Shown here: positions 9,849 to 46,442 of the stretch, piece by piece | How positions within the stretch are numbered: the stretch's first letter is position 1 | How the letters are laid out: the number at the start of each line of letters is the position of its first letter | The notes under the pieces: generated by a model | Database searches by the model: none | Seen by the model: only the letters and a program-made list of their open reading frames with translations | What the model was told of the DNA's origin: nothing | Assembly: GCA_023667245.1 (NCBI GenBank) | Contig: JAMPAL010000010.1 | Coordinates: 1-46,442, forward strand | Reading direction: 5' to 3' | Source of the DNA: Anaeroplasma bactoclasticum | GTDB taxonomy: Bacteria; Bacillota_I; Bacilli_A; ML615J-28; CAG-313 | Length of the DNA: 46,442 nucleotides | Program-made: the position numbers and the translations under genes

Positions 9849-10348
9849 GTAAAATGTTATTTTTGTTGAATAAAAGTGAATGTATATGAGCAAGAATGTT
9901 ATTTTTTGTCCAACAAACTTTGACAAAAGAACAATTTCCTGATGTGGAGTCTATTGCCATACAGAAAATGCATACTGAGTAGGGTATAAATCTATCTATT
10001 TATCTCGGTATAGTTTTCTTATAAACGATAGAATTAAGCAATATGTCTGTGGTTCAAAAGTAGAGGGAATGCTTTCAATTTATCCTGGTCAAGTATATAC
10101 GATATTGTTTTAAGAAATGAATATGAGTGAGCACATGGTACTATATTCAAGATATGAGTTAAAAAATAAAACTAGATGATATCTAAGATGTTCAGTGGAA
10201 GGAAGGATGGGCAATAGATCTATAAATATGATTTTGGAAACGGAAAAATTCGACAAGTCAATTTTTAAAAATATTTTTAAAAACGAGCCAAACGAATAAA
10301 GCGGGAAACGTTTTCATATTTTAAAAAGAAAAATGGGAATTATTTTAT
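9849..10348. other. Gene-poor 500-base stretch with short decayed reading frames
   Basis: No complete gene is visible. An ATG at 9896 opens a 28-codon frame ending at 9982 (MLFFVQQTLTKEQFPDVESI at its start). A second protein-like frame without a start follows at about 9978-10114 (YLSRYSFLINDRIKQYVC and SKVEGMLSIYPGQVYTILF are parts of it). The frames differ, so this may be a frameshifted, decayed gene. Around 10260-10290 there is a self-complementary A/T run. No terminator or tRNA is seen. Confidence 0.3.
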
Positions 10349-10376
10349 TTGCGAAAAAGTTTTAAATGATTATAAT
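10349..10376 (+). promoter_or_regulatory. Promoter of the pot operon
   Basis: TATAAT at 10371-10376 with a TTGCGA -35 at 10349-10354 (16-base spacer) lies 35 bases before the potA start. Confidence 0.65.
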
Positions 10377-10410
10377 ATTGTCTTGTCAAAATATATAATT
10401 GGAGAAATGG

Positions 10411-11562
10411 ATGAAAAAAGTACTTATTGAATTAAATAATTTGTCAAAAGAATTTGATGGAGTAAATGTAGTTAATCATATTAATCTATCAATTTATGAA
10501 AATGAATTTTTGACCATACTAGGACCATCTGGATGCGGGAAAACAACGACACTACGAATGATTGCAGGATTTGTTAAACCTGATGATGGAGAAATCATTA
10601 TTAATGATAAAGTTGTTAATGAATTAGAGCCATATGCTCGACCAGTAAATACTGTGTTTCAACGATACGCATTGTTTCCTCATCTGAATGTTATTAAGAA
10701 TGTGTCATTTGGCTTAGACAATAAAGATAGTATGTCATTATACCATTTTTTTGGTGGAGATGCTATTTTATCACAAATCAGACAAGCAAAGCAAGACACC
10801 CAAGCGAAAGTATCAAAACGAGAGATTAAAAAGTATATCCAGTCTAAAATTGAGGAAGAGGCAAAGCGAGTACTAAAATTAGTAAAGTTAGAGGGGTTAG
10901 AAAATCGAAAAGTGGATCAATTATCCGGTGGCCAACAACAACGTGTGGCTCTAGCTAGAGCTTTAATCAACCGCCCTCAAATCTTATTATTAGATGAGCC
11001 GATGGCTGCACTTGATTTGAAACTTCGTCAAGATATGCAATATGAGTTGAAGGAAATGCAACGTAAGCTAGGAATCACGTTCATTTTTATTACGCATGAT
11101 CAAGAAGAAGCAATGACAATGAGCGACCGAATTGTTGTTATGAATGAAGGGATTATCCAACAGTTAGGTACGCCGAAAGATATTTACAATGAACCAGTCA
11201 ACCGCTTTGTGGCCAATTTTATCGGTGAAAGTAATATTATGCGAGGGGTTTATCAGACCGCTAATCGGGTATCCTTTATGCATCAAGAGTTTGAGTGTGT
11301 TGGATATCAGTTTTTAGACCAAGAAGAAGTGGATGTTGTCATTCGACCTGAAGATTGGGATGTTGTTCCTCTAGAAAAGGCGAAACTAAAAGGGACGGTT
11401 ACATCGAGTATCTTTAAGGGGGTATATTATGAAATTTGTGCAATGGTTGAACAAATGGAAATGGTAATCCACGCTTATGAAGACGTTTCTGTAGGTGCTA
11501 CCATCGGCCTATCGGTGGATCCCTATGAAATTCATTTGATGAAGGTTGAAAAATATGAATAA
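10411..11562 (+). CDS. potA: Spermidine/putrescine ABC transporter ATPase
   Basis: The 383-residue ATPase energises polyamine uptake from the inner membrane face. Walker A GPSGCGKTT (38-46), Q-loop Q84 in FQRYALFPH, signature LSGGQQQRVALARAL (171 on), Walker B LLLDEP (192-197) and the switch His in ITHDQEE are intact. A TOBE-type regulatory domain follows from about residue 270. Between the Q-loop and signature there is an insertion of about 45 charged residues (about 103-148) that canonical PotA lacks; mollicute PotA proteins are also longer than usual. The ATG at 10411 has GGAG upstream; an in-frame TTG at 10399 is less likely. The stop overlaps the potB start by 8 bases. Confidence 0.93.
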   Translation: MKKVLIELNNLSKEFDGVNVVNHINLSIYENEFLTILGPSGCGKTTTLRMIAGFVKPDDGEIIINDKVVNELEPYARPVNTVFQRYALFPHLNVIKNVSFGLDNKDSMSLYHFFGGDAILSQIRQAKQDTQAKVSKREIKKYIQSKIEEEAKRVLKLVKLEGLENRKVDQLSGGQQQRVALARALINRPQILLLDEPMAALDLKLRQDMQYELKEMQRKLGITFIFITHDQEEAMTMSDRIVVMNEGIIQQLGTPKDIYNEPVNRFVANFIGESNIMRGVYQTANRVSFMHQEFECVGYQFLDQEEVDVVIRPEDWDVVPLEKAKLKGTVTSSIFKGVYYEICAMVEQMEMVIHAYEDVSVGATIGLSVDPYEIHLMKVEKYE

Positions 11563-29651: not shown

Positions 29652-29738
29652 GCAATCGTGGCGGAATAGGTAGACGCGCTACTTTGAGGGGGTAGTGACC
29701 GAATGGTCGTGTGAGTTCGAGTCTCATCGATTGCACCA
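29652..29738 (+). tRNA. tRNA-Leu (anticodon GAG)
   Basis: The acceptor stem GCAATCG/CGATTGC, a long variable arm typical of Leu, the anticodon loop TTGAGGG (anticodon GAG), the T-loop GTTCGAGTC and an encoded CCA are all present. The accessory island starts immediately downstream, which fits tRNA genes being common integration sites. Confidence 0.96.
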
Positions 29739-30132: not shown

Positions 30133-30336
30133 ATGAAGATTGATTATCCAGCCACTATAATTCGTATACGAGCTGAACTTGGATTATCGCAAACAGAATT
30201 GGCAGAAATCCTTGGTGTCTCCTTTACGTCTGTTAATAGATGGGAAAACGGAAAATATGAACCTACTAAAGCTGTAAAAAAGAGAATTGAAGTTTTATGT
30301 GAAAAACACGAGATAAAACTTGAGATAAAAAAATAA
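30133..30336 (+). CDS. XRE-family helix-turn-helix regulator
   Basis: The 67-residue protein is a single helix-turn-helix domain: LGLSQTELAEILGVSFTSVNRWENGKYEPT covers the recognition helix (residues 15-45, both halves visible). It has no effector domain, so it probably binds DNA as a dimer and controls its own operon. ATGGAGAG lies upstream of the ATG. It is the first gene of the island operon, with 19 bases to the probable start of the next gene. Small regulators of this kind often lead restriction and BREX loci, where they delay or limit expression. Confidence 0.85.
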   Translation: MKIDYPATIIRIRAELGLSQTELAEILGVSFTSVNRWENGKYEPTKAVKKRIEVLCEKHEIKLEIKK

Positions 30337-30355
30337 ATTGAAAGAAGCAATTATT

Positions 30356-33300
30356 ATGGATTTTAAGCAAGCGTTTATAAATTGGATATCTACTAATAAG
30401 TTAAAGAACACTACCCCTATTGATTTAGCTAATAATATAGAGGTAGCTTTTAACGTTTGCTTTAATTTAGATGTTTGGCAAATTAGTGACCCAAAGCTTT
30501 ATAGTGATTTAAGGAATAAAATCATATTAGATAAGAATTTTAAAAGAAAAAACAAAAAAATATATAAAAAATTTGTGACTTTAGGTAGGTGCTATCAGGT
30601 TTTTTTGAAAAATGAATTTATTACAAATTCTGTTAAATCGATGAATTTTAATAATGTAGACGAACTACCTACGCATGATTCATCTGAAGGAAAAACATTA
30701 ATTCAATCCGAAGATGAAAATAGAATATATGAATTTTTTAATGATAATAAGGCGGCACAGAAATTTTGCAAAGTTTTTGAATATGCATTAAAAGAAGTCA
30801 AGGATTTAGTCTTGGATATCAGAGTTTCAATAATAGGAGTAAAAATTGTAGGTGAAAGGCTTAGATTTTATTCCGATAAAACTAATTTGAAATTTAGTAA
30901 AACAAATAGAACTTTTTTACTCGCAAACAACGATGATGATTTAGATGATATATTTGCTGCTGTTGATGAGGTAAACAAGTATTTTTGTGATTTTTGTGAT
31001 GAGGTTGTCATTTTCAAAGAGAGGGAACTGTCTCTAGGATATGTATATCATTTAAAGTTTGGATTTGGTTATATAATGAGTCAAGAAGATAATATTGTTA
31101 AGATTAAGTTTGACGATGATTCAATAGGTATCAAAATAATTCAACTTAATCACCCCACTTATGAAAAAATTAGTAGACAAGATTATGAAAGAAAGCTGGT
31201 GCCAAATGGAATAAAAGAAAAATCTTCAACTGGACGTGTAGGATGGGATAAGTTTGAAAGTGCTTTATTGATTGAGGCCTTTTGGAAAATAGAAAATAAA
31301 AAAGGAAATCGAAATGAGATTTTAACAAAGCTCTCAAATGATTTAAGAACACGTGCTATACATTTAGGTCAAAAAATAGATGATAAATTTAGAAATTTAA
31401 ATGGTGTGAATATCCAGTTATCTAATATAGCCTTGTCGTTTTATCCAGAACGTTCTGCAATGCATAGGACAGCTATTTTTGATACTATTGCAAAAATATA
31501 TTTAAATGATCGCAATGAATTTGATCGTATTTTATCGGAAGCACATGAACAAGTGAATGGAACACAACATAATACATACGTTGATAGCAAAAGTAAAAAG
31601 TATGTTATTTCTATGGCAGAAGTTGATTTTTATTCTTATATAAAAGATAGTTATATTCAAAATCATAAAGCAGATGGTAAAGCACATAGAGCTAATAATC
31701 ACGCCCAGAAATGTATTGATATAGTAAGAGATATAAATGAAATGTTGCTTCTATCCAAATTGAAAATTAATAATATTTATTCTATATCTAATGTTAACGA
31801 ACTTAATCAGATAATAGCATTTGTTAAGGAAAATCTCAAAGATAAATCTGAAGATAAAGTAAAATGGGTATGGTATGTCCTAAATAGATATAAGATTTTT
31901 TTGAAGGAAGAAAAGAAAAAACTAAATTCTATTGAAAATATGAGCAATCCTAATAATGAAGATGTAATAACTCAAGGATTTATTTCTGCAGAGGAGAGAA
32001 TGAGGATGTATCCTGATTATGTTAAGGTTTTGCAAGAATGTTTCCCAGAAGGGTTTGCTTATAAAAATCAATTGAGAAAAAGAAAGTTTATTAAATGTTA
32101 TTCAGAATTAAATGGCAAAGTTCTTGAGGATAGCAATGAAGTATATGAAAAAAAATTATTGATGATTGGATTTATTAGTGAAGAAAAAGTATATTTACCA
32201 TCAATTGTAGATGCTACAACATATAAAGCGTTGAAAAAATACATTGATAAAAAACTGGATGCAACAGGTTCAATCATTTACTATTCTGTTATTTATGATA
32301 GTTTTACAGATAGATTGAATGCAGGCTTCAGTGAGGGTATGTTAAAGGAATATCTAATATATATTTTTGCCGGTGTATATAAGTTTGATAGGGAATATTT
32401 GTCAAAGGTTGGCACTACTGGAGATTCTAAGAAGGATTTGATTAATTTATTCATAAACACAGGTCATCCAATGGAAATAGAAGAGATTTACTCTAAATTA
32501 CCCAATATTGCACAAAATGCAATCGATGGATTACTGCGAGATAGGGATTTTATAGTTAACTTTAGAGGGAAATCGTATTTCTACAAAGGTATTTTCGAGA
32601 TAGAAGATCAACAATTGAGTAAAATTAGGGATTTTATTAGAGAGACTATCCAAGAAAAATATCATGTGAGTAGTGCTGAACTATGTTCCTTCATACGTGA
32701 GGAAATGCCAGAATTGATAGAATCGAATCCATATGTTACGGATCTAGGTTTTAAGAATTCAATAAAATTACTTTTAAATGATGAGTTCAGTTTCAAAGGT
32801 GATGTAATTAGTGAGTCAAGTAAGCAAATTGATGTAAAGGAATTGTATCGAGAATTCTGTAGAAGAAGAGAAAAATTTACTTTGGAAGAACTCGAAGAAT
32901 TTAAAGCTTCAATTCATAAAAGTTATATTGATTACAATGCTGTTTTTGAAATTTCAATTAGAGTAGATGCAGATACATATGTAAGACGAGATATTATTAA
33001 TTTTGATGTTGAGAAGATTGATAACGCAATTTTGAATTATTGTAACGATAAATACGTTTCTTACCTGGATATAATCAATTTTATAGAATTTCCCACTTTA
33101 CAATATCCGTGGAATTATTATGTTTTGGAGGGGTATCTGTTTTCTGAAAGCAAAATATTTTCCATACTAAATGCTACATTTAATAAAGAAAAGCCAGTAG
33201 GTGCAATAATAAAAAAACATGCTTTTGATAATTTTGATGATTTAATAGTTGACGTTATCAAAGAAAATAGATTATTTAATAGAGAGAAAGCCTTTGAGTA

Positions 33301-33376
33301 TCTTCAAGAAAATTGCTTTATCTTGACAAGAAAATTTAAGAATATTGATTTACTCATTAATAAGGCAAAAATGTAA
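30356..33376 (+). CDS. Large multidomain DNA-sensor-like protein of unknown function
   Basis: This 1006-residue protein is not an assigned BREX component. Residues 1-87 form a helical domain (FINWISTNK to CYQVFLKNE) that recurs in a second copy at about 423-518 (VDFYSYIKDSYIQ to RYKIFLKEE). Residues 226-266 look like a Tudor/SH3-like barrel (LGYVYHLKFGFGYI then VKIKFDD), as at the C terminus of UvrD-type helicases. Residues 294-365 match a domain found in defence nucleases and helicases (W297, then LIEAFWKIENKKGNRNE and IDDKFRNLNGVNIQLSN). From about 545 to the end there are winged-helix-like segments, such as FINTGHPMEIEEIYSKLPNI. No nuclease, ATPase or methylase motif was found. ATG 30356 is preferred over an in-frame TTG at 30338, though the ribosome site is weak. 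Translation probably follows on from the XRE gene. Confidence 0.7.
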   Translation: MDFKQAFINWISTNKLKNTTPIDLANNIEVAFNVCFNLDVWQISDPKLYSDLRNKIILDKNFKRKNKKIYKKFVTLGRCYQVFLKNEFITNSVKSMNFNNVDELPTHDSSEGKTLIQSEDENRIYEFFNDNKAAQKFCKVFEYALKEVKDLVLDIRVSIIGVKIVGERLRFYSDKTNLKFSKTNRTFLLANNDDDLDDIFAAVDEVNKYFCDFCDEVVIFKERELSLGYVYHLKFGFGYIMSQEDNIVKIKFDDDSIGIKIIQLNHPTYEKISRQDYERKLVPNGIKEKSSTGRVGWDKFESALLIEAFWKIENKKGNRNEILTKLSNDLRTRAIHLGQKIDDKFRNLNGVNIQLSNIALSFYPERSAMHRTAIFDTIAKIYLNDRNEFDRILSEAHEQVNGTQHNTYVDSKSKKYVISMAEVDFYSYIKDSYIQNHKADGKAHRANNHAQKCIDIVRDINEMLLLSKLKINNIYSISNVNELNQIIAFVKENLKDKSEDKVKWVWYVLNRYKIFLKEEKKKLNSIENMSNPNNEDVITQGFISAEERMRMYPDYVKVLQECFPEGFAYKNQLRKRKFIKCYSELNGKVLEDSNEVYEKKLLMIGFISEEKVYLPSIVDATTYKALKKYIDKKLDATGSIIYYSVIYDSFTDRLNAGFSEGMLKEYLIYIFAGVYKFDREYLSKVGTTGDSKKDLINLFINTGHPMEIEEIYSKLPNIAQNAIDGLLRDRDFIVNFRGKSYFYKGIFEIEDQQLSKIRDFIRETIQEKYHVSSAELCSFIREEMPELIESNPYVTDLGFKNSIKLLLNDEFSFKGDVISESSKQIDVKELYREFCRRREKFTLEELEEFKASIHKSYIDYNAVFEISIRVDADTYVRRDIINFDVEKIDNAILNYCNDKYVSYLDIINFIEFPTLQYPWNYYVLEGYLFSESKIFSILNATFNKEKPVGAIIKKHAFDNFDDLIVDVIKENRLFNREKAFEYLQENCFILTRKFKNIDLLINKAKM

Positions 33377-33397: not shown

Positions 33398-35755
33398 ATG
33401 TATTCATATGAGTGGGATGAAGAAACAGGTGGTATATTGTTAAATAGCACTCCATTGCAAATGAGCAAGGAACCAAGACCCGTTTATTATAAAGAATTGG
33501 ACATATTAGGTTTTGATAAATATTGGAAATACGATAAGGATGATTCTTATCCGTATATGTGGGCAGAGGCGAACAACTATTTCTATAGAGGAAGACTTGT
33601 TGGAAAAACAAGAGGTGGTACAATGTGTACCGCTCCAGAAATAATAATTGTTGAAGATCCTGAGCCAAACGGTGCAAAATTACAATTCGTTGATGTTAAT
33701 AAAATGGTTGAAAAAAATAGAACTATTATTGATCAACTAGCACAACACACAATTAAGAAGACATATTCATATTATTTAAATTATCAAAATAAAGTTGACG
33801 TATTCTATGTTGCTTTTAGTGGTGGAAAAGATAGTGTTGTAGCGTTGGATATTGTTCAAAGGACTTTGCCACACAACGAATTCCTTGTTTTGTTTGGCGA
33901 TACAGGTATGGAATTTTCAGATACCTATGATACGGCAAAAATAATTGAAAAACAATGTGAGCAAAATGGAATTAAGTTTCTAACCGCAAAATCAAATTTA
34001 GATCCAACTGATACATGGAGGATGTTCGGTCCGCCAGCTCAAAGGATGCGTTGGTGTTGTAGTGTTCATAAATCTACTCCTCAAATATTGGAACTCCGCA
34101 GATATTTACATAATGATAAATTTAAGGGAATGGCATTCACTGGTGTAAGAGCCGATGAAAGCGAAGCCAGAAGTGAGTATGAAGAAGTAAATAACGGAGA
34201 AAAGGTTAAAGGACAATATAGTTGTCATCCAATATTGGAATGGAACTCCGCTGAATTATTCTTGTATATATATCAAAATAATCTTTATTTGAATAAGGCG
34301 TATAAAAAAGGAAATAGCAGAGCGGGATGCCTAATATGTCCTCTTGCTGGACAAAAGAATTCATATATTAAGAGTGTTTGTTATAATAAATCGATTTGTG
34401 GTGAAAATACAACAAAAACATTTAATGATATTATATTAGAAACAACATCAAAAACATTATCGTCGCAAAATTCGATTGAAGAATTTATGAACATAGGTGG
34501 CTGGAAAGCAAGAAGGAGTGGACGTGAATTAAATATTGCAAAAGATATTTATTCTGACGAGATAAAAAATGGTGTATTGACAATTACAATTAAAAAAAAT
34601 GATAAGAGTTGGAAGGAATGGATAAAGACCATTGGTAAAATCATTTCAATTTCTGATACAGATGTGAAGATAGAATTCCAAGATAAAATATACATTGTTG
34701 ATGTTAAGTATGATTTTGATAAAACTAGTTTCGTTGTTGATTTAGCATCTAACACAAGAAATGATATCTACTTTTGTTCATACCTTAAAATTGTTGCGAG
34801 AAAATCATGCTATTGTATAGGATGTCGAGTTTGCGAAGCAAATTGTCCCAATGGATTTATTTCGTTTAAGAATGGACAAGTGTTTGTTGATGATAAATGC
34901 GTGAAATGTAAAAAATGTTATGAGGTTGATTATGGTTGCCTAGTTGCTAATTCATTAAAATTACCAAAAGGAGAAAAGAAAATGGGGAGCATTGATAGAT
35001 ATACAAATTTAGGAGTTGAATATGATTGGATTAAAGAGTATTTTGAAAAAAAAGATTCCTTTTGGGAAAATCATAATTTAGGAAGCAAAAAAATTGATGT
35101 ATTTAAGAACTTTTTAAAGGATTCTGGTGTAAGTGAAAAAAACGTAATGACAAAGTTTGGTTACCTTGTTGCCAATTTGGGGGCAGAGAGTGCTACATCA
35201 TGGGGATTAATGTTATCAAATTTGGCATACACTCCTGAGTTTAATTGGTGGATTAAAAATATAGAATTAAATTCGTATGTAGATTCAACGCTTATTATCA
35301 ATATGCTTGATTCGAATTTGACTGGAAATACCAAAGACCATGTAGCGAGTGCGTTTAAAAACATATTTATTTCCAACAAACCCTTATCAGAAGAAATTGG
35401 GTTGGGAGTTTGTGATTATGAGATAAAAAACGGAAAGAGAAAATTAAATAGTATTATGAGAAGAAGTTGGATTGATCCCGATCCCAAAGTAATATTGTAT
35501 TCCCTTTATAAATTTGCGGAAAACTGTGGAAATTACTATCAATTTTCATTGACCAGATTATTAAATCACTCTATTGAAAGTGATGGAATAAGTCCGACAG
35601 AGATTTTTGGTTTAAACAGAGAAACAATGGAGAAAGTATTACAAGGATTGGCCATTAACTATCCCGAATACATTTCGGTTTCTTTTACATTGGATTTAGA
35701 TAATATTAATCTAAGGAACGACAAAACATCTGATGATGTTCTTGAAATATTCTAA
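33398..35755 (+). CDS. brxP: BrxP: PAPS reductase/DndC-like enzyme fused to ferredoxin and C-terminal domain
   Basis: The 785-residue protein defines type 4 BREX. Residues 135-320 are an adenine-nucleotide alpha-hydrolase domain of the PAPS-reductase/DndC type. The PP-loop is SGGKDS (141-146), followed by DTGMEFSDTY and cysteines C220, C221, C311 and C314 (RMRWCCSVHK, GCLICPL) that could hold an iron-sulfur cluster. Residues 471-514 are a two-cluster ferredoxin domain (C473, C476, C479, C483 and C501, C504, C507, C514). Residues 530-785 resemble the DUF4007 domain known from phosphorothioation loci (ending region DPDPKVILYSLYKFAENCG), an assignment from pattern only. A DndC-like role, activating or transferring sulfur to DNA, is inferred. 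AAGGAGGTG precedes the start. Confidence 0.85.
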   Translation: MYSYEWDEETGGILLNSTPLQMSKEPRPVYYKELDILGFDKYWKYDKDDSYPYMWAEANNYFYRGRLVGKTRGGTMCTAPEIIIVEDPEPNGAKLQFVDVNKMVEKNRTIIDQLAQHTIKKTYSYYLNYQNKVDVFYVAFSGGKDSVVALDIVQRTLPHNEFLVLFGDTGMEFSDTYDTAKIIEKQCEQNGIKFLTAKSNLDPTDTWRMFGPPAQRMRWCCSVHKSTPQILELRRYLHNDKFKGMAFTGVRADESEARSEYEEVNNGEKVKGQYSCHPILEWNSAELFLYIYQNNLYLNKAYKKGNSRAGCLICPLAGQKNSYIKSVCYNKSICGENTTKTFNDIILETTSKTLSSQNSIEEFMNIGGWKARRSGRELNIAKDIYSDEIKNGVLTITIKKNDKSWKEWIKTIGKIISISDTDVKIEFQDKIYIVDVKYDFDKTSFVVDLASNTRNDIYFCSYLKIVARKSCYCIGCRVCEANCPNGFISFKNGQVFVDDKCVKCKKCYEVDYGCLVANSLKLPKGEKKMGSIDRYTNLGVEYDWIKEYFEKKDSFWENHNLGSKKIDVFKNFLKDSGVSEKNVMTKFGYLVANLGAESATSWGLMLSNLAYTPEFNWWIKNIELNSYVDSTLIINMLDSNLTGNTKDHVASAFKNIFISNKPLSEEIGLGVCDYEIKNGKRKLNSIMRRSWIDPDPKVILYSLYKFAENCGNYYQFSLTRLLNHSIESDGISPTEIFGLNRETMEKVLQGLAINYPEYISVSFTLDLDNINLRNDKTSDDVLEIF

Positions 35756-35772: not shown

Positions 35773-38700
35773 ATGAATTCTAAAAAATATAGAAACTATT
35801 TTCAAATTAATGAAAGTTATTTCCCTGCAGTTAATGAAGATGTCATTAAAACACAACCTAATCATTGGAAGACATACTACCCACATGAAACTTTCATGAA
35901 ACTTTTAGAAAATACTATTAGTGTTTTAACTAGAAGACAAAAGTTATCCATATGGGTTGAAGGTGCGTATGGTACTGGTAAATCCCACGCTGTTTTGACA
36001 TTGAAGAAACTCTTGGATTGTTCTAATGAAGAATTGAAAGAGTATTTTGATAATTATAAATCTGTTTTCAAAAATAATGATTTGTATAATGAATTTTATA
36101 ATATTAAGAACCAATCAAAAAAAGTATTAACAGTACATAGATATGGCTCATCAAACGTTAGAAATGATAATATTATGGTTAACATTGTACAAGAAAGTAT
36201 TATCAAAGGATTGGAAAGCAATGGCTATGAATATAAAGGACAAGTAGGTATTAGGCAAGCAATGATAAATTGGCTTATCAATAAGTCTAATCGTCAATAC
36301 TTTAACAATATAGTGCAAGAAGAGTATAGAATCTTGTTTAGTGGAGCAAGTGCAGACACTATTCTTGAGCAATTAAAATCTTTAACAGATGAAGATGCAA
36401 TTCAAACACTTACAGAAAAAATTTCTCTTGTTGGTGAAGAAAAAGGAATTAAGCCATTTGTTCTTCAAAAAGAAGATTTGAGAAGCTGGATTATTGATGT
36501 TATTGATAAAAATAATCTTAAAGCAATTTTCTTTATTTGGGATGAATTTTCTGATTACTTCAGTCTAAATAAAGGTGATTTGTCTGGCTTCCAATATTTA
36601 GCTGAGTTGAGCGAAACATACCCTTTCTATCTTACAATAGTTACCCATAAGTCAGACATTTTCTTTGAAAATTCGAAAAATGATTTGAGAACAAAAATAA
36701 ATGGTCGTTTTATTGCCCCGCATTGTTCAATCGAATTGCCAGACAATATGGCATTTATTTTAACTGGGCACGCTATGCAAAAAAAGACCGACCTACAAAT
36801 TAGAAAAGAGTGGGATGAAATAGTAGATGCTCTTTATGATGTAACACATGACTCTAGAAAAGAGGTAATGACAACCGCTAAAATTGGTGAAAAAGAATTA
36901 AAGGGTGTATTGCCAATTCATCCATATGCTGCATTGGTTTTGAAACATATTGCAGTAGCCTTTGACTCTAACCAAAGAAGTATGTTTGACTTTATCAAAA
37001 ACGATAGAGGAGAAGAAATAAAAGGTTTCCAATGGTTTATTGATAATTATGGACCAGACGATGATGATGAAGCATTGCTTACAGTTGATTTGTTATGGGA
37101 TTTCTTCTATGAAAAGGGTAGAGATCAACTAGCTCCTCAAACAAGAATGGTGCTTGATGTTTATGGTAGAGTGGAATCACATAATTTAAATAACAAACAA
37201 AAGCGAGTATTAAAGACTATTCTTTTGCTTCAAGCAATTAATGAAAAAGTTGGTGATACTGTTTCTTTGTTTGTACCTAATAAGAAGAATTTAGCACTTG
37301 CTTTTGAAGGTACCGACATTTCACCAAGCAATGCAAGTTCTTTCGCAGATAGTCTTATCAAAGAACAAATTATATTTGAAAGACCTATGGGCGGTGGAGC
37401 ATTTAAGTATTCTGCCTTAGTTTCTAATGGAAATCTTGAGGAAATTAGTAAAGAAAAAGAAAGACTAACAAGAGAAAGTAGAACAGATAAGTTAATTGAA
37501 GAAGGCGAATTTGTAAACGATTTTAAATTGCCACGTAATTTAGAAATTAGATTTATACTAAGACATCTCACATACGAAAACATAAAGATGGAATTATCAA
37601 AAATAATTGCCGACTCTTCAAACCATCCTTCTAGATTATATGCTATCTACACATTTGCAAGAAATGAAGAAGAGTGTATACGTATAAGACAAGAAATTAG
37701 AAGAACCTTAGATTCTGGTTTCGAGAAAGCTATATTTATTGATTATTCTAGCAACTATTTAAGTTCTGATTTGTTCAATCAATATATTGAAAATATGGCA
37801 AACTGTAATTATCAAAAAGGCAAGGATCAAGGACAAGCAAGAACATACGATAAGAATGCAAAGGAAGCCATTAGAAGATGGAAACTTTCAATTAGAAATA
37901 ATTCTTGCAGAGTGTATACTTCTTTCGATTTGGATGGTACTATTTGTAATTCCGAATCCGAAATTCACTATGCAGTAAAATCTTTTGACAAAGAACATTT
38001 TCCTAATGCATTAGAAACACATGTAAATGTTATTGATAACATGTATGCTTCAAATGCATTGAAACAAGGTGCGGAATGTGGTTTGACAGGTGAAATCAAA
38101 GGAACATATAAATCTGCCAACGAAAATACTAAACTAGAAAAACAATTTTCCGGTGTTTGGAATGTCGAAAATTATTGGACTGTTAGGCCAAATGAATTGG
38201 TTTCTAAAGTTAAAAACAAGGTAGAAGAGATAATAAAAAGCAATTTTGATAAGAAGACAAGAGTTTCTATTGGAGATGTCTATGATGCTCTTATTGATTC
38301 TCCGTTTGGATTTTTACCTTGTAATTTAACTGCATTTATAATGGGCTATGTTCTGAGAGATTATGCGAATGACGCATACAATTGGACAGATGATTTAACA
38401 ACTGTTCCTATGTCTATAGAAAAAATGAAGGAGATGATTGAGGAAATAATCAAGCAACAGCAAACTCCTTCAAATAAGTATAGAACAAAATACATAGTTG
38501 AAATGTCGCCAGACCAAAGAGAATTTAATAAATCAACGGCTTTTGCTTTTGAAATAGATGAAGCATTATGTACATCAGTTGAAAATACAAGAACAAGAGT
38601 TCGTTCAAAAATGAATTCGTTTAAATTTCCTATATGGACATTAAAATATTGTGAATTTTCTTCAATTAGTCTAAGAGAAAAAGTTGAACAGCTTATTGAT

Positions 38701-39972
38701 CTATATGTTGAACTTGCAAACAACTCTACTTCTGTCAGAACAGAAACGGACATTGCTCTTGACATAGGTAGATTGTATCGTGAAAACAATAAACTAAATG
38801 TTGACATTAAGGGTTTACTGACAAAAGATAAGTGTGTTGAAGGAATGCATAATTATCTTAAATCATATGAAGGTGGTAAATTAATTAGATTAGCAAGTCA
38901 ATTAAATGATTCAGGTTCTTATATCAATGAGATTAATAAGAAGTTTAGTGAAGCATCAAATTGGGTATGGAATAAGAAAACTGTTGATGAGAAAATCGAT
39001 GAAACCATTGTTGAATATGAAATTGTTTGCGAGAGTAATAGTTTTATTACAAAAACGGTAACATATCTTGATTGTATTTCTGAATGGAAAAAGAAATGTG
39101 AAATGTTTAAGGTTGCTTTCCAAGCCGTAAAAAATGATGTTAAAGATTTGCGTGACTTTTTGGAAATTTTATATCAACTTAAGAAAAATGGTTACATTTA
39201 TGACAATTCAAAGAAAGATTTTTTAGAATGCTTGAAATCAAAGAAAGAACAATTTAAAAATTTCTGCGAAAATCAAATCACGATTTTATTTCAAACAGAA
39301 AGATTTTATTTAGATGGTTTATCTGATGAAGATGTTAACTCAATTTCCACAAAATTATATGATGTATTTGCAATGGAAAATAGTGAATATCAAAGACGCC
39401 TAGAAGCTGAAGTAAGTGATTACAAAGCTAATATGTCTAAATATCAACTTATTGAATTATGGAAAAAAAGAACATTTACAGAATCCCCAATGGAATGGTC
39501 CGAGAAGTATTCCATGCCAATATTATGTATAATACCTGCTTTAGAGCAAGATGAGGCTCGAAGTGTATTTGACACAATTAATAGTCAAGCTAATGACAAG
39601 AACAGAATAGATTATGCAATTGATTATCTTGAAAAATTCCCTTATTTCGATGACTTGAATTCTGAATTAGCAAGAAATAATGCATTTAAGAAATTCATCC
39701 TAAAATCATACTCAACGATGTTAGATGATATTTTAGAAGTTAAAAAAACTATTAGAGGTAAAGTGTCCATTCATCCATATCATTGGCTAGAAAATTCAGC
39801 TATTAATGATTTAATAAAGAATCTTGCATTCCAAAAATATAATAATGGAGGCAATTCTAAGGTGTACATGGTTATAGATTCAATGTCGCCTGATGAATTA
39901 AAGAAATACTTGAAGAACCTTGTAAGAGAAAATATGATTGTTGGTATTGAAATAATTAACAATCAAAAGTAA
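35773..39972 (+). CDS. brxC: BrxC-like large P-loop ATPase
   Basis: The 1399-residue protein has Walker A GAYGTGKSH at residues 64-72 and Walker B AIFFIWDEFSDYF at 251-263, the arrangement of BrxC/PglY ATPases. The remainder is long, helical and charged with no second enzymatic motif. BrxC is an essential core component of all BREX types and is thought to act with PglZ on DNA. Length is a little above the usual 1200. The ribosome site is a run of G. pglZ follows after 11 bases. Confidence 0.88.
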   Translation: MNSKKYRNYFQINESYFPAVNEDVIKTQPNHWKTYYPHETFMKLLENTISVLTRRQKLSIWVEGAYGTGKSHAVLTLKKLLDCSNEELKEYFDNYKSVFKNNDLYNEFYNIKNQSKKVLTVHRYGSSNVRNDNIMVNIVQESIIKGLESNGYEYKGQVGIRQAMINWLINKSNRQYFNNIVQEEYRILFSGASADTILEQLKSLTDEDAIQTLTEKISLVGEEKGIKPFVLQKEDLRSWIIDVIDKNNLKAIFFIWDEFSDYFSLNKGDLSGFQYLAELSETYPFYLTIVTHKSDIFFENSKNDLRTKINGRFIAPHCSIELPDNMAFILTGHAMQKKTDLQIRKEWDEIVDALYDVTHDSRKEVMTTAKIGEKELKGVLPIHPYAALVLKHIAVAFDSNQRSMFDFIKNDRGEEIKGFQWFIDNYGPDDDDEALLTVDLLWDFFYEKGRDQLAPQTRMVLDVYGRVESHNLNNKQKRVLKTILLLQAINEKVGDTVSLFVPNKKNLALAFEGTDISPSNASSFADSLIKEQIIFERPMGGGAFKYSALVSNGNLEEISKEKERLTRESRTDKLIEEGEFVNDFKLPRNLEIRFILRHLTYENIKMELSKIIADSSNHPSRLYAIYTFARNEEECIRIRQEIRRTLDSGFEKAIFIDYSSNYLSSDLFNQYIENMANCNYQKGKDQGQARTYDKNAKEAIRRWKLSIRNNSCRVYTSFDLDGTICNSESEIHYAVKSFDKEHFPNALETHVNVIDNMYASNALKQGAECGLTGEIKGTYKSANENTKLEKQFSGVWNVENYWTVRPNELVSKVKNKVEEIIKSNFDKKTRVSIGDVYDALIDSPFGFLPCNLTAFIMGYVLRDYANDAYNWTDDLTTVPMSIEKMKEMIEEIIKQQQTPSNKYRTKYIVEMSPDQREFNKSTAFAFEIDEALCTSVENTRTRVRSKMNSFKFPIWTLKYCEFSSISLREKVEQLIDLYVELANNSTSVRTETDIALDIGRLYRENNKLNVDIKGLLTKDKCVEGMHNYLKSYEGGKLIRLASQLNDSGSYINEINKKFSEASNWVWNKKTVDEKIDETIVEYEIVCESNSFITKTVTYLDCISEWKKKCEMFKVAFQAVKNDVKDLRDFLEILYQLKKNGYIYDNSKKDFLECLKSKKEQFKNFCENQITILFQTERFYLDGLSDEDVNSISTKLYDVFAMENSEYQRRLEAEVSDYKANMSKYQLIELWKKRTFTESPMEWSEKYSMPILCIIPALEQDEARSVFDTINSQANDKNRIDYAIDYLEKFPYFDDLNSELARNNAFKKFILKSYSTMLDDILEVKKTIRGKVSIHPYHWLENSAINDLIKNLAFQKYNNGGNSKVYMVIDSMSPDELKKYLKNLVRENMIVGIEIINNQK

Positions 39973-39983
39973 GGAGTTACAGC

Positions 39984-42245
39984 ATGCATGAACGTTTGAA
40001 AAACAAAATTAATTCATTCATAGATAGTAATGATAATAGACCACTTATTATTGATGTTTCCAATGTTGAAGAGCGGGATAATTTGCTTCAAGATTTTTTT
40101 GCTACCCCCAGAAAGAGCATTTTTGAACTTGTAAAGAGTGAATGTGAGTTGCCTGAAATTTCAAGTTTGTATGAGTATATGTCTAATTGTAAAGAAAAAA
40201 CTGTTATTCTTACTGATTTGGGAACTTATTTTAAATTATTGGGACAGGATTCATTACAACAAAACATCCATGCCTTATTGGAAAAATCTTTTGCGACAAA
40301 GTTTATTATTCTTACTTTACAATGTGGACAATACCTTAATGAGAAAAATCCTAAAAACGCATCAAAAATAGTTGTGAGTGAGAATCAAAATTATTCAAGT
40401 ACACCCGCGATTGTATTTGTTAATAATGAATATAAGCAATATGTTCGTGCAGAAAATGGTTTAAATGTTGCTTTGCGAAATGTTGAAAGAAATACTGGAG
40501 TCAAAATCTATGTGCTGACAAGTTATAAGAAAAAGGATTTTAAATCACCATTGTTTAACATAGAAGAATGCAAAGATGCATTTGAATTATTATGCTTAAG
40601 AGATTTAAAGGTTAAGAAGTTAAAATCTCAATATGGGACAAAAGCTGAGTGGTCAACATTATTAAATAAACTTCAAAACGATTCAGTTGAGGAAACAATT
40701 AAGGAGTTTATTATTACAAAAAATTTCATCAAAAATATTGAAGAATGGAACAATAAAACACCATTTGAAAAGTGGCTTTTATTTATTTATTCCAAACTAA
40801 ATAATATTAAAACCGAAAATTGGGCAGTGAATTATGCTATTGCTAAGGCAAACAAATATAATGAATTTTTAAGATTAATTTATGACTCACTTCTTGAAAT
40901 CAACTATAAGGAAGAAGACTTTTGGAGCAAATATGAACAAAGAAAGCAAATCCTAAAGAAAATAGGTGATGATTCAATTATTTATGACTATTGTAATTTT
41001 ATTGGCTATAAAAAGGAAGATGCAATATATTATTTAACTGACAATACCGATCGAGAAAAAAATTTAATTATTAAGATAATCGATTCCTATTATCAATCAT
41101 TTAGTAAGAATAAATTATTGAGTGTCCTTAAGTGTGTTTACCCGGACTTGTATGCATATCTTTGTAATTATAACATGGGAGATGAATTACTTAATAGTTA
41201 TTTTAATGAATACAAGTATTTGAAAATAATCAATCATCTTACTCCAGAATTCAAAGCTATTGTTGACAAAGAAGCGTGTGAAAGAAATTACAAAAGAATT
41301 TTAATGTATAGATCTGAAAAATTAGATGAAATATCGTTTGATGATGCTATTGTTTATTTTATAGATGCTTTAGGCGTTGAATTTTTGAGTTATATTGAAC
41401 GAAAATGTGTAGAAAAGGGGTTGGCAGTAAATGTTCATGTCGCTAAAGCAAACCTTCCAACTCTTACCTATAAAAACACTGAATTTAGAGAGTTCTTCAG
41501 TAAGAAAAAAGTTGAAGTTAAAGATGAAAAAGAGCTTGATAGTTTAATTCATGACGGAAAGAATGATTTTGATTTCGATAAGAATAAATTGCCGATACAC
41601 ATAATTGAAGAATTTAAAATAATTGACAACTGTATTTCAAGCATAAATGCCAAATTAAAATCATATTCATATGAGAAGGCTGTAATCGTTTCTGATCACG
41701 GAGCAACTCGTCTTGCTATTTTGAATACAGAAATGATTAAAATTGATGTAGAATCACCAGGCGAGCATGGTGGTAGAGTATGTAAGGTTATCCCAAATAT
41801 GGAAATTATTCCAAATGCAATTTATGAAAATGACGTGTGTATTTTAGGCGATTATAATGCATTTAAAGGAGGCAGAGTTGGTAAGGTAGAAATGCATGGT
41901 GGGGCTACACTTGAAGAGGTAGTTGTTCCAATTATCGAGATATCTCGTAAAGAGGCTAACGTTGAGATAAGAGTTATTACCGAAGTAATTAAGGTAAGTT
42001 ATAAGACAATAGCGGTACTTAAATTCTACTCTAGTAGTAAACTAAGCAATGTAACTGTTCATGTTAATGGTGCATCATATTCTGCAGAGTCAACTGATGG
42101 ATTTAATTTTCTTTCAGAACTCATAGATTTAAAAAGAAGTGGTAACTATAGTTTTGAGGTGTGGGCGAACAATAAACTTGTCTCAACTAATAACAACTTC
42201 AAAATTGAAAAAGAGTCTGCAAAGACTAATAACTTGTGGGAGTGA
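39984..42245 (+). CDS. pglZ: PglZ-domain protein (BrxZ)
   Basis: The 753-residue protein carries a PglZ domain of the alkaline phosphatase superfamily in its C-terminal half. D461 lies in FIDALGVEF, threonines at 493-495 in LPTLTY occupy the nucleophile region, D571-H572 in IVSDHGATRL, and HGG lies at about 595 (GEHGGRV) and about 638 (MHGGATLEEVVVP). These are the predicted metal ligands. The N-terminal half is helical and unassigned. PglZ is the hallmark gene of BREX. AAGGAG precedes the ATG. The end region (GTGGGAGTGA) also provides the ribosome site for brxL. Confidence 0.9.
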   Translation: MHERLKNKINSFIDSNDNRPLIIDVSNVEERDNLLQDFFATPRKSIFELVKSECELPEISSLYEYMSNCKEKTVILTDLGTYFKLLGQDSLQQNIHALLEKSFATKFIILTLQCGQYLNEKNPKNASKIVVSENQNYSSTPAIVFVNNEYKQYVRAENGLNVALRNVERNTGVKIYVLTSYKKKDFKSPLFNIEECKDAFELLCLRDLKVKKLKSQYGTKAEWSTLLNKLQNDSVEETIKEFIITKNFIKNIEEWNNKTPFEKWLLFIYSKLNNIKTENWAVNYAIAKANKYNEFLRLIYDSLLEINYKEEDFWSKYEQRKQILKKIGDDSIIYDYCNFIGYKKEDAIYYLTDNTDREKNLIIKIIDSYYQSFSKNKLLSVLKCVYPDLYAYLCNYNMGDELLNSYFNEYKYLKIINHLTPEFKAIVDKEACERNYKRILMYRSEKLDEISFDDAIVYFIDALGVEFLSYIERKCVEKGLAVNVHVAKANLPTLTYKNTEFREFFSKKKVEVKDEKELDSLIHDGKNDFDFDKNKLPIHIIEEFKIIDNCISSINAKLKSYSYEKAVIVSDHGATRLAILNTEMIKIDVESPGEHGGRVCKVIPNMEIIPNAIYENDVCILGDYNAFKGGRVGKVEMHGGATLEEVVVPIIEISRKEANVEIRVITEVIKVSYKTIAVLKFYSSSKLSNVTVHVNGASYSAESTDGFNFLSELIDLKRSGNYSFEVWANNKLVSTNNNFKIEKESAKTNNLWE

Positions 42246-42250
42246 TAAAT

Positions 42251-43729
42251 ATGATAGATAAATTAAAAGAATATTTTGATGAGATGGTTGTTTATAAAGA
42301 CATCAAAAATACAAGTTTTTTTACCAATTTGAATTTGCCATCTTTCTTAAGAGATTATTTACTTAAAATTTTTCAAGATGATAATGGAGAAATTGATTAT
42401 GAGGGAATGGATAAATTTATAAAAGAAAGAATACCCAGAAAAGAAGAATGGATTGGCATTAAAGAAAGAATTGTAATTGGTGGAGAAAGAGTCAAATTTT
42501 TGACTAGAATATCTGTTGATATTGATGTTGCTACACAAGCCATATCTTTTTCGCTTCCAGATTTTGGTTTAACAAACAAGGAAACAATTATAGAACCTCA
42601 TATTTGGCAAGATTTAAAGAATGAGCTTATTAGTGCAAGAGATGTTTGGGGTATTGTCGAATTAGGATACAAATATCCAGATAATTATGACATTGAGTTT
42701 ACTGGCAAAAACTTTAACAAAGCGAAATATAAAGAAAAAGGGAAAATCAAGCTTTGCTCATTTAAGAATTTCTGTCCATATTCAATTGATATTGATTATT
42801 ACAAAGATATAAGAAATGAATTTGATGTACATGAATGGATTGATTTGATTTTGGGTGCGGTTGATTATAATGCTCATGGATATGAAAGCGAGCATCAAAA
42901 GTTAGCTGTTTTAACAAGATTGCTTCCTTTTATAGAAAAAAGGCTTAATATCATTGAATTAGCACCTAAAGGTACAGGTAAATCTTATTTGTTTGGACAT
43001 GTTAGTAAGTATGGTACATTAGTTGATGGCGGAAAAGTATCACGTTCAAAAATGTTTTATGATGCTGCTTCTCGTAAGTATGGATTTATTCAAGGGAATG
43101 ATTTTGTAGCTATTGATGAAATAAAACTTGTAAAGTTTAATGATGATAACGAGATGCGTTCAATTCTTCAAGGGTACATGGAATATGGTTCTTTTAACTG
43201 TAATGGCTTTGAAGGTGAAGCTGATGCTGGTATTGTTTTTTTAGGTAATATATCGCAGGAGTATATGGATGAATATCAATATATGCTTAATGAATTGCCA
43301 AATTTATTTCAAGAAACAGCATTGTTAGATCGTATTCATGGTTTCATAAAAGGATGGGATATTCCAAGAATGAATGACGACTTGAAATTAACAGGTTGGG
43401 CGTTGAATTCCGAATATTTTTGTTCAATAATGCATTTGTTAAGGGATGATACTTCATATAGAACAATTGTTGATAGGCTAATTGAGGTTCCAGAAAAAGC
43501 TGATACTAGAGATACTGAGGCCGTAAAAAGAATCGCAACAGCATATTTAAAATTGTTATTTCCGAATGTCAGAAAAACGACAGATATTAATATAAAAGAT
43601 TTTAAGAACTATTGTCTTAAGCCTGCAATGAAGATGAGAGAAATAGTTAGAATGCAACAAATTTATCTTGATAAAGAGTATAAAGGAAAAGACATACCTG
43701 ACTTTAAAATTGTTGCAAACGAGGAGTGA
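42251..43729 (+). CDS. brxL: BrxL-like AAA+ protein, short form without protease domain
   Basis: The 492-residue protein has Walker A APKGTGKSY (238-246), Walker B FVAIDE (285-290), sensor GNIS (332-335) and an arginine at 361 (LLDRIHGF), matching the AAA+ core of BrxL. BrxL of type 1 BREX is longer and has a Lon-like C-terminal domain; no Ser-Lys protease dyad region is seen here and the protein ends about 130 residues after the AAA+ core. The ATG at 42251 has GGGAGTGA upstream within the end of pglZ. BrxL has been shown in type 1 systems to form DNA-binding ring assemblies; the same is inferred here. Confidence 0.87.
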   Translation: MIDKLKEYFDEMVVYKDIKNTSFFTNLNLPSFLRDYLLKIFQDDNGEIDYEGMDKFIKERIPRKEEWIGIKERIVIGGERVKFLTRISVDIDVATQAISFSLPDFGLTNKETIIEPHIWQDLKNELISARDVWGIVELGYKYPDNYDIEFTGKNFNKAKYKEKGKIKLCSFKNFCPYSIDIDYYKDIRNEFDVHEWIDLILGAVDYNAHGYESEHQKLAVLTRLLPFIEKRLNIIELAPKGTGKSYLFGHVSKYGTLVDGGKVSRSKMFYDAASRKYGFIQGNDFVAIDEIKLVKFNDDNEMRSILQGYMEYGSFNCNGFEGEADAGIVFLGNISQEYMDEYQYMLNELPNLFQETALLDRIHGFIKGWDIPRMNDDLKLTGWALNSEYFCSIMHLLRDDTSYRTIVDRLIEVPEKADTRDTEAVKRIATAYLKLLFPNVRKTTDINIKDFKNYCLKPAMKMREIVRMQQIYLDKEYKGKDIPDFKIVANEE

Positions 43730-43732
43730 ATT

Positions 43733-43930
43733 ATGAAGATTTGTTGTGTTGCGTGTTTTAAAGAAAATTTAAATAAAGATACTATTGCATTAAACAAGAA
43801 GTTATTAGGGAAAAATATTGAAAAGTACTATTGTCTAGATTGTCTTGCAGGTTTTTTAAATGTGACTGTAGACGAAGTATTAGAAAAAATAGAAGAATTT
43901 AAAGAAGAAGGATGCGAATTGTTTAAATGA
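43733..43930 (+). CDS. 65-residue cysteine-rich CxxC protein
   Basis: This tiny protein has two CxxC pairs (C5/C8 in CCVACF and C34/C37 in YYCLDCLAGFL), which could bind zinc or an iron-sulfur centre. Additional cysteines are C4 and C61, and there is a C-terminal helix (VDEVLEKIEEFKEEGC). GAGGAGTGA at the end of brxL is its ribosome site, and its last codons overlap the cysteine desulfurase start by ATGA, so the two are translationally coupled. That coupling suggests it works with the desulfurase, for example as a sulfur acceptor or adaptor, by inference only. I do not recognise a named family. Confidence 0.75.
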   Translation: MKICCVACFKENLNKDTIALNKKLLGKNIEKYYCLDCLAGFLNVTVDEVLEKIEEFKEEGCELFK

Positions 43931-45060
43931 AAAAAACAATCTATGCAGATAATGCTGCCACAACAAAACTATCAGAAAATGTATTTGATAAAATGAAAAA
44001 ATATTTACTAGATGATTTTGGTAACCCATCTCAGTCATATTCTTTTTCTCGTGGCTCAAAAAAAGCATTAAAAGAAGCACGATTAAGAATTGCATCTTGC
44101 ATTGGAGCAAGACAAGAAGAAATTTTCTTTACATCTGGCGGAAGTGAAAGTGATAATTGGGCTATAAAATGTTTTGGTAAAATTTCAGATAAGAAGGTAA
44201 TAATAACTTCGTGTATTGAACATCATGCAATTTTAAATGCGTGTGAAGACGAAAGAAAAAAAGGTGCACAAATACTATTTATTTCCGTTGATGATGATGG
44301 CATAGTGAATTTAGAAGAATTAGAAAAATGTTTAATAAAGCATCAAACAAGTAATGTGCTTGTGTCAATTATGACTGCGAACAATGAAATAGGAACGATT
44401 GAACCGATTTATGAAATATCTAAAATATGTCATAAATATGGGACATTGTTCCATACGGATGCTGTACAAGCTATAGGACATGTGCAAATAGATGTAAGTA
44501 AACTAGGCGTTGATATGTTATCTGCTTCTGCACATAAATTTAATGGTCCTAAAGGAATAGGTTTTTTGTACATAAGAGAAGGAACGCAAATTGCATCATT
44601 TGTAAATGGAGGCTCACAAGAGAATGGTAAAAGAGCAGGAACAGAAAATGTACCTGCAATAGTAGGTATGTCGTATGCACTAGAAGAATCAATTTTAAAA
44701 ATGGAAGAAACAACTCAAATGCTCTCTAAGATGGAAGCAAAGTTTATATCTAATTTGAAAGATAATAATGTCGATTTCCTAAGGAATGGGGACATTAATA
44801 ATCATTTGCCTGGTCTAATTAACGTTTCTATAAAAAATACGAGCGGGGAATTAGTTCTACATAGACTTGATTTAATGGGGTATTATATATCTACAGGATC
44901 AGCATGTGATGGCAAAAAAAATCAAGTATCGCATGTTATAAAATCAATTAAAGTTGATAATGATTACGCAGAAGGAACTATACGAATAAGCTTTGGACGA
45001 ATGAATCAAGTTTCCGATGCAGAAGAAATTGCAATGGCGTTGGTACATGTGTTGAAATGA
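43927..45060 (+). CDS. Cysteine desulfurase (DndA/IscS/NifS type)
   Basis: The 377-residue PLP enzyme removes sulfur from L-cysteine as a persulfide. Key residues are present: H100 in EHHAIL, D178 in HTDAVQ, PLP lysine K204 in SASAHKFNGPKG, the RAGTENVPAIVG motif and catalytic C327 in STGSACDGKKNQ. Length is normal for the family. In phosphorothioation systems the homologous DndA or IscS supplies sulfur to DndC; here the DndC-like partner is BrxP, five genes upstream in the same operon. The start overlaps the CxxC gene by 4 bases. A housekeeping iron-sulfur role is possible, but no IscU-like scaffold is adjacent. Confidence 0.9.
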   Translation: MKKTIYADNAATTKLSENVFDKMKKYLLDDFGNPSQSYSFSRGSKKALKEARLRIASCIGARQEEIFFTSGGSESDNWAIKCFGKISDKKVIITSCIEHHAILNACEDERKKGAQILFISVDDDGIVNLEELEKCLIKHQTSNVLVSIMTANNEIGTIEPIYEISKICHKYGTLFHTDAVQAIGHVQIDVSKLGVDMLSASAHKFNGPKGIGFLYIREGTQIASFVNGGSQENGKRAGTENVPAIVGMSYALEESILKMEETTQMLSKMEAKFISNLKDNNVDFLRNGDINNHLPGLINVSIKNTSGELVLHRLDLMGYYISTGSACDGKKNQVSHVIKSIKVDNDYAEGTIRISFGRMNQVSDAEEIAMALVHVLK

Positions 45061-45490: not shown

Positions 45491-46442
45491 GTGCTTGGAA
45501 TCGAACAATTTAAAAAATTACAAGAGTATAAGAAGCTAGGGGTATCAAAACTTAAGGTATCTGAAAAACTTAATTTATCGTATAAAACCGTATGGAACTG
45601 GTGGGATAGAGACGAAGATTTCTTTTACAAGTTTCAAAAAGAACATGAGTTTATCTTGGATAATTATAGGCAGTATATTATTGAAATATTAAAGATATGT
45701 CCCCAAATAAATAATACTGTGCTTCTAAGAAGAATCAAGGATGATTTTAGTGACTTTGATATTCCTTCTACTACATTTTATAGGTATGTTAAAAAGGTTA
45801 GAGAACAAACTGGATTATTAAAACCTGCTAGAAAGTATTCTATAAGAGAAGAAACAGAACCAGGTTATGAAGGGCAAGTTGATTTCGGTCAGTATGTGAT
45901 GAAAACAATGTATGGAAGAAATATTAGAATTTATTTCTTTTCGATGATTTTATCGTATAGCAGAATGAAGTTTGCTTATTTTTCAGTAGAGCCATTTGAT
46001 GCAAGCAAGACTATTGAAAGTCATATTTATGCATTTAGATATTTTGGTGGAAGACCTCAAATGATTGTTTATGACCAGGATAAAACAATGGTGGTATCTG
46101 AAAATTTAGGTGAAGTTATTTTTGTTAAGGAATTTGAAGAATTTATCAAAGAGACAGGGTTTTCAATATATTTATGCAAAGGATATGATCCATCAACTAA
46201 AGGTAAAGTTGAAAAGACAGTTGATTTTGTTAAACATCAATTTTTAGATGGAAGAATCTATTATGGCATTGATAGATTAAATGCAGAATTTATGGATTGG
46301 TTAGACAGAGTTGGTAATGGTCTAATTAATGAAACAACCAAAAAAGTCCCTAGACAATTATTTAAAAAAGAATATCCTAAACTCATCAAGTATTATGAAA
46401 AGAAAAATGATGAAATGGTAGTTCATACTGTTTATCATGATA
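45491..46442 (+). CDS. istA: IS21-family transposase IstA, truncated by the window end
   Basis: 317 codons are visible and the frame is open at the window edge. The N terminus holds a helix-turn-helix (YKKLGVSKLKVSEKLNLSYK). The DDE catalytic core follows: D131 in GQVDFGQY, D195 in VYDQDKTMV and E241 in KGKVEKTVDFVK, with the family's PRQLFKKEYP-like region after it. The GTG start at 45491 has a perfect AAGGAGGT 7 bases upstream. The helper ATPase IstB should lie beyond the window. Terminal inverted repeats could not be defined. Confidence 0.88.
   Translation, partial: MLGIEQFKKLQEYKKLGVSKLKVSEKLNLSYKTVWNWWDRDEDFFYKFQKEHEFILDNYRQYIIEILKICPQINNTVLLRRIKDDFSDFDIPSTTFYRYVKKVREQTGLLKPARKYSIREETEPGYEGQVDFGQYVMKTMYGRNIRIYFFSMILSYSRMKFAYFSVEPFDASKTIESHIYAFRYFGGRPQMIVYDQDKTMVVSENLGEVIFVKEFEEFIKETGFSIYLCKGYDPSTKGKVEKTVDFVKHQFLDGRIYYGIDRLNAEFMDWLDRVGNGLINETTKKVPRQLFKKEYPKLIKYYEKKNDEMVVHTVYHD

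Follow-up and report, generated by a model that had tools for sequence, protein, structure and literature searches.

The window, by which we mean the whole stretch of 46,442 nt of Anaeroplasma bactoclasticum DNA that was analyzed, contains a BREX phage-defense operon on its forward strand: brxP (33398 to 35755), a gene for a BrxC-like P-loop ATPase (35773 to 39972), pglZ of the BREX-4 type (39984 to 42245), and brxL (42251 to 43729). These four genes are separated by gaps of 17, 11, and 5 nt. The assignment to BREX type 4 is based on a PglZ that exceeds the NCBIfam cutoff (NF033445, 367.9 bits, cutoff 140) and a PAPS-reductase-type BrxP (PF01507, 96.3 bits; PADLOC BrxP, 795 bits), which lie in one operon with the BrxC-like ATPase (PADLOC BrxC, 768.5 bits) and BrxL (PADLOC BrxL, 664.7 bits). 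BrxP has a PAPS-reductase domain and a ferredoxin-like cysteine region. In the excerpted text of two papers, brxPCZL are named as phosphorothioate genes (PMC11931770, PMC12707154).

Downstream of brxL are a small gene with five conserved cysteines (43733 to 43930) and a gene for a NifS/DndA/SspA-like cysteine desulfurase of 377 amino acids (43927 to 45060), both on the same strand. The small gene begins 3 nt past the brxL stop codon. Its ATG is preceded, at a distance of 6 nt, by a ribosome-binding-site-like hexamer, GAGGAG (43721 to 43726), which lies within the end of the brxL frame. The TGA of the small gene (43928 to 43930) overlaps the ATG of the desulfurase (43927) as ATGA. The desulfurase scored 413.1 bits against PADLOC's DndA and 405.8 bits against SspA, and it was under the cutoff for the NCBIfam DndA equivalog (TIGR03235, 310.7 bits versus 480). 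By these scores, it is DndA/NifS-like rather than a strict DndA.

Other features flank these genes. Just upstream of brxP is an open reading frame of 1012 amino acids (30338 to 33376) with no match in Pfam or PADLOC; relatives with about 26% identity lie directly 5' of brxP in the viral loci L130 and L131, and it is a possible further BREX-4 neighbor. A tRNA-Leu gene (29652 to 29738) precedes the BREX block, and a transposase-like frame that contains an rve integrase core (45491 to 46441) follows it, so the whole block is possibly a mobile island.

The small gene encodes a protein of 65 amino acids that starts with MKICCVACFK and ends with GCELFK. It has a zinc-finger-like part with two CxxC pairs, three predicted helices, and a C-terminal GCxLF motif. 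Its cysteines are C4, C5, C8, C34, C37, and C61; in the family alignment, C4 varies, which leaves C5xxC8, C34xxC37, and C61 as the conserved set. When we scanned bacterial genome contigs with this protein, we found relatives at 27 loci, with 52 to 69% identity. Twelve columns are invariant across the 27 aligned rows: C5, C8, K23, C34, C37, K52, F56, K57, G60, C61, L63, and F64. In five pairs of close relatives, codon changes were mostly synonymous (51 versus 17 nonsynonymous), and 52 of the 74 base changes were at the third position. Given the 27 related loci, the invariant columns, and the mostly synonymous changes, the 65-codon frame is a real gene, far beyond a chance open reading frame. 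This confirms the frame as first annotated from the sequence alone: 65 residues with two CxxC pairs, a C-terminal cysteine (C61), and an ATGA overlap with the start of the desulfurase.

Family searches did not place the protein. It did not exceed the cutoff of any family in Pfam, NCBIfam, PADLOC, or PHROGs, and a sequence search of PDB with the family profile found nothing below E = 0.45. Residues 1 to 38 bear a subthreshold likeness to DUF2197 (PF09963, E = 0.073), but we rejected membership in that family, as the score was 13.8 bits and the curated cutoff is 22.2. From the CxxC pairs, we infer that C5, C8, C34, and C37 probably hold one zinc ion.

AlphaFold2, with an alignment of 25 rows, gave a model with a mean pLDDT of 92.2 and helices at residues 15 to 25, 35 to 42, and 46 to 58. 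We considered whether the protein might be a DNA-binding helix-turn-helix regulator. VIA-align found a weak likeness of residues 14 to 65 to the helices of sigma region 4, DeoR, and MntR (Z up to 4.0, rmsd 6.0), and there was a subthreshold match to a NirdL-like helix-turn-helix domain (E = 0.01). However, Foldseek found no match at E = 0.001 or better in either PDB or BFVD (the best was E = 1.0). Also, the last helix, which would take the place of the recognition helix, is acidic: its mean net charge is -4.8 over 15 residues in the 27 rows of BREX type, including loci L036 and L038, and the predicted pI is 4.4 to 6.2 in every row. Finally, a location inside the operon would be unusual for a regulator, as would the copies that are fused to the C terminus of an enzyme (described below). 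We therefore consider a regulatory role improbable. We made no fold assignment from the weak VIA-align rows (sigma region 4, DeoR, MntR, and HPV E6), whose Z is 4.0 or less. A more obvious candidate for a regulator of the operon is a 67-amino-acid helix-turn-helix protein (HTH_3; MqsA-antitoxin-like) encoded directly before the 1012-amino-acid frame (30133 to 30336).

We then considered the genomic context of the relatives. Among 28 loci (the 27 bacterial loci and the phage record L012), 26 have brxL directly upstream and the desulfurase directly downstream. Because we used the protein itself as the query and several loci are near copies of each other (L024, L025, L027, and L029; L033 and L034), this proportion describes the context of the gene and not its frequency. 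Of the 27 loci with a desulfurase in reach, 25 allowed us to assign a start codon, and in these the gap between the small gene and the desulfurase ranged from -17 to +18 nt, with an overlap in 7; the two most negative gaps rest on alternative start codons. One exception to the common arrangement is L036 (9986 to 11172), where the small gene lies beside a desulfurase frame that is interrupted once about 256 residues have been matched, with no BREX genes nearby; this is either a remnant or an assembly error. The other exception, L038, is an orphan copy with neither brxL nor the desulfurase adjoining. The genomes of L036 and L038 contain no match to the BREX-4 PglZ.

The BREX-4 blocks at L024, L025, L027, and L029 are closely similar, and they lie on contigs that are labeled as Anaerofilum, Faecalibacterium, Phascolarctobacterium, and a Spirochaetes bin. 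This reflects either recent transfer or mis-binned contigs.

Other searches with the protein returned little. Nine of the ten rows from the initial search were the window itself or had E above 0.01, and the remaining one was locus L002. A second match to a phage record (H2) had E = 0.2, the match in genome G217 is a 38-amino-acid fragment at a contig edge, and tblastn against plasmids found no relative. We rejected four matches as due to chance: a viral one (L011) comprises 25 residues within a frame of 2612 amino acids and lacks the cysteine pattern, and those in genomes G498, G127, and G509 lie in longer frames that also lack it. The window's own genome has one copy of the gene. Across 257 genomes of its class, that copy was the only convincing match, and PglZ exceeded the cutoff only in the window's genome.

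We also sought BREX-4 loci with the PglZ model alone, which is blind to the small gene. PglZ exceeded the cutoff 7 times in 391 genomes of one class, 11 times in 299 genomes of one family, and twice in 280 genomes of another family. In this last family, the PglZ of genome G1225 was just under the cutoff and was counted as a third locus; other matches under the cutoff were treated as other types of PglZ. From these 21 loci, we removed three that had served as seeds (G101, G102, and G108) and G915, where the contig ends after pglZ, which left 17 testable loci. The small gene was present in 16 of the 17 and the desulfurase was detected in 15, and no locus had the desulfurase without the small gene. 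G490 has neither gene, and G953 has the small gene, with no desulfurase within the 0.9 kb that is left on the contig. Of four BREX-4 loci found via BrxP, L130 has both genes, neither gene occurs in L145 (a Methanosphaera plasmid) or L146 (a phage scaffold), and L131 carries the small gene but lacks a desulfurase. In all, the small gene without a visible adjoining desulfurase was seen at two loci, L131 and L173 (at a contig edge). A two-by-two test of the small gene against the desulfurase was weak, with p = 0.12 for the 17 unseeded loci and p = 0.0075 if the four BrxP-found loci were included; both values ignore relatedness and are indicative only. The BREX-4 loci L128, L145, and L146, which have neither gene, would be useful as natural controls.

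The position of the small gene varies. In the 16 unseeded loci that contain it, it lies between brxL and the desulfurase 10 times, after brxL with no desulfurase seen once, between pglZ and brxL three times (L177 to L179), and between brxP and brxC twice (L170 and L171). In all five of these rearranged loci, the desulfurase is still downstream of brxL. As the position shifts while membership in the operon persists, the small gene belongs to desulfurase-bearing BREX-4 and not to the start of the desulfurase. The first-pass annotation had described the gene as translationally coupled to the desulfurase; the ATGA overlap in the window stands, but that arrangement is just one of several.

Two side results came from the same loci. 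First, L170 and L171 contain a conserved frame of roughly 190 to 200 amino acids between brxL and the desulfurase (at about 10350 to 10990 and about 10080 to 10750, respectively). Second, Cys187 of BrxP at first appeared to mark the presence of the small gene (12/12 loci with it versus 0/3 without). However, BrxP has tyrosine or tryptophan at this position in L170, L171, L177, and L178, which contain the small gene, and nine phage fusions have tyrosine or phenylalanine, so we dropped this residue as a marker of a clade.

The domain also occurs within phage proteins. Starting from L002, a fragment found in a related genome, we reached 13 viral loci. In all 14 of these (the 13 viral loci and L002), the profile of the small protein matches the C-terminal 51 or 52 residues of a PAPS-reductase-like protein, with E = 1e-16 to 1e-11; as the query behind the 13 viral loci contained this tail, 14 of 14 does not estimate a frequency. 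A PAPS_reduct domain precedes the tail in each of the three proteins that were scanned. In a pairwise BLASTP comparison, the small protein and a phage tail are 39% identical over 70 columns (E = 9e-15). The predicted helices have the same spacing, at residues 380 to 390, 400 to 407, and 411 to 423 of the phage fusion, an offset of 365, although the model of the fusion is poor overall (63.5). These phage proteins, which are relatives of phrog_424 (L132 to L144 and L002), share the order of cysteines and the GCxLF tail with the small protein. They differ in that the domain is fused to an enzyme, the first cysteine pair is spaced by three residues (CxNGC) rather than by two (CxxC), and the tail is basic (pI 8.9 to 9.7), whereas the BREX protein is acidic. 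Such a tail is absent from the window's BrxP. As the domain forms the tail of PAPS-reductase-like proteins, it is linked to enzymes of the BrxP type. Together with its presence in 16 of the 17 unseeded loci, this supports the part of the first-pass proposal that ties the protein to the desulfurase/BrxP system.

A third group of relatives lies outside BREX loci. The 391 genomes of one class yielded a second set of 15 matches (41 to 70 bits), and with L054 they form a set of 16 (L082 to L085, L087 to L097, and L054). In 15 of the 16, a gene similar to GH27 alpha-galactosidases lies upstream on the same strand, either directly (14 loci) or one gene away (L088); the remaining locus, L092, is cut by the end of the contig. 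One of the GH27 neighbors was confirmed with Pfam. These proteins keep all five cysteines and a GCxLF-like tail, and their genes overlap the partner gene or lie close to it, as in the BREX loci; unlike the BREX proteins, they form a separate branch, and most of the six rows that were measured are basic. We found no desulfurase or BREX genes near them in the stretches searched. In a tree of 56 rows, the GH27-linked proteins form one group (support 100/98), as do the domains fused to PAPS-reductase-like proteins (100/99), though the tree has few columns and many open forks. The first-pass proposal would be refuted by homologues that for the most part are not located near genes for desulfurases or PAPS reductases: the BREX-type group does not have this pattern, and the more distant GH27-linked group does. 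A literature search with partial coverage recognized nothing about either the phage PAPS-reductase tail or the GH27-linked family, which is a weak negative.

The existence of this sister family beside GH27 genes implies that the domain is not confined to proteins involved in sulfur chemistry. It also bears on whether the small protein is a persulfide carrier, with a structural zinc and with C61 taking sulfane sulfur from the desulfurase and handing it to BrxP for DNA phosphorothioation. C61 is invariant in the 27 aligned rows and in 56 of 56 rows across the BREX-type, PAPS-fused, and GH27-linked groups, and both the close linkage to the desulfurase and the fusion to PAPS-reductase-like proteins would fit such a carrier. 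But C61 is just as fixed in the proteins beside GH27, where no sulfur transfer is evident, so the fact that it is conserved is not in itself evidence of a persulfide relay. Furthermore, according to the excerpted text of PMC7188994, the desulfurase SspA forms a complex with the PAPS-reductase-like SspD unaided. We consider a persulfide carrier to be unlikely, if somewhat less so than a regulator; the fuller version, in which a zinc fold with C61 as the shuttle is a dedicated carrier that phages have also built into their PAPS-reductase-like enzymes as a tail, is slightly less likely again.

Alternatively, the domain could serve in a general way as a small zinc adaptor or folding aid, sitting on whichever enzyme is encoded next to it (the GH27 enzyme in one case, BrxP or the desulfurase in the other), with no role in sulfur transfer as such. 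In favor of this are the three separate partner contexts, with the GH27-linked and the PAPS-fused rows each forming one group in the tree, and the fact that in both types of operon the gene overlaps its partner or lies close to it. However, the presence of the small gene tracks desulfurase-bearing BREX-4, a pattern that would be left unexplained if the protein merely helped BrxP to fold. We rate this explanation as doubtful, on a par with the regulator.

In our view, the protein most likely binds zinc and serves BrxP and the desulfurase as an accessory for docking or for sulfur handling. Membership in the operon survives the reshuffling of gene order, the small gene and the desulfurase are absent together, and phages have fused the domain to the class of enzymes that BrxP resembles; these three observations suggest work at the desulfurase/PAPS-reductase step. 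Specifically, C5, C8, C34, and C37 would bind one zinc ion, and the helical part, with its invariant GCxLF tail, would dock on BrxP, on the desulfurase, or on both. Docking might bring the two enzymes together or shape the acceptor site, and sulfur would then pass from the desulfurase to BrxP for phosphorothioation of DNA. Phages may achieve the same effect with the domain fused to their own PAPS-reductase-like enzyme. As the Ssp desulfurase binds SspD, in the excerpted account of that system (PMC7188994), an aid at the interface between desulfurase and PAPS reductase has a natural place. Points against this role are the GH27-linked family, the loci without a visible desulfurase (L131 and L173), and the orphan copies (L036 and L038). 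Overall, we give a probability of roughly 50% to the reading that the protein is a standard accessory of desulfurase-bearing BREX type 4 and a zinc-held docking aid for the passage of sulfur from the desulfurase to BrxP.

The protein has very probably been mentioned before. One sentence in the excerpted text of a paper from January 2026 (PMC12839542) states that a small zinc-finger protein often co-occurs with the desulfurase of BREX-4, and it likens that protein to helix-turn-helix regulators. The identification is by description only: both proteins are small, rich in cysteine, and found with a BREX-4 cysteine desulfurase. Thus, the suggestion in the first-pass annotation that this is an overlooked component has largely been overtaken. 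Beyond the excerpted text of that paper, our analysis adds the shifting position of the gene, the tail of the phage PAPS-reductase-like proteins, the sister family beside GH27 genes, and the acidity of the last helix. The excerpted accounts of the Dnd and Ssp systems (PMC10853773, PMC7188994) mention no comparable small protein, a further point against the accessory role, and the former does not mention BREX in its excerpted text.

Should phosphorothioation require the small protein, desulfurase-bearing BREX-4 would have one core part beyond the four genes that carry names, and reconstructions of the system from brxPCZL, with or without the desulfurase, may lack it. The phage tail bears on the purpose of those PAPS-reductase-like genes in phages, and it offers a direct and cheap handle on the function of the domain.
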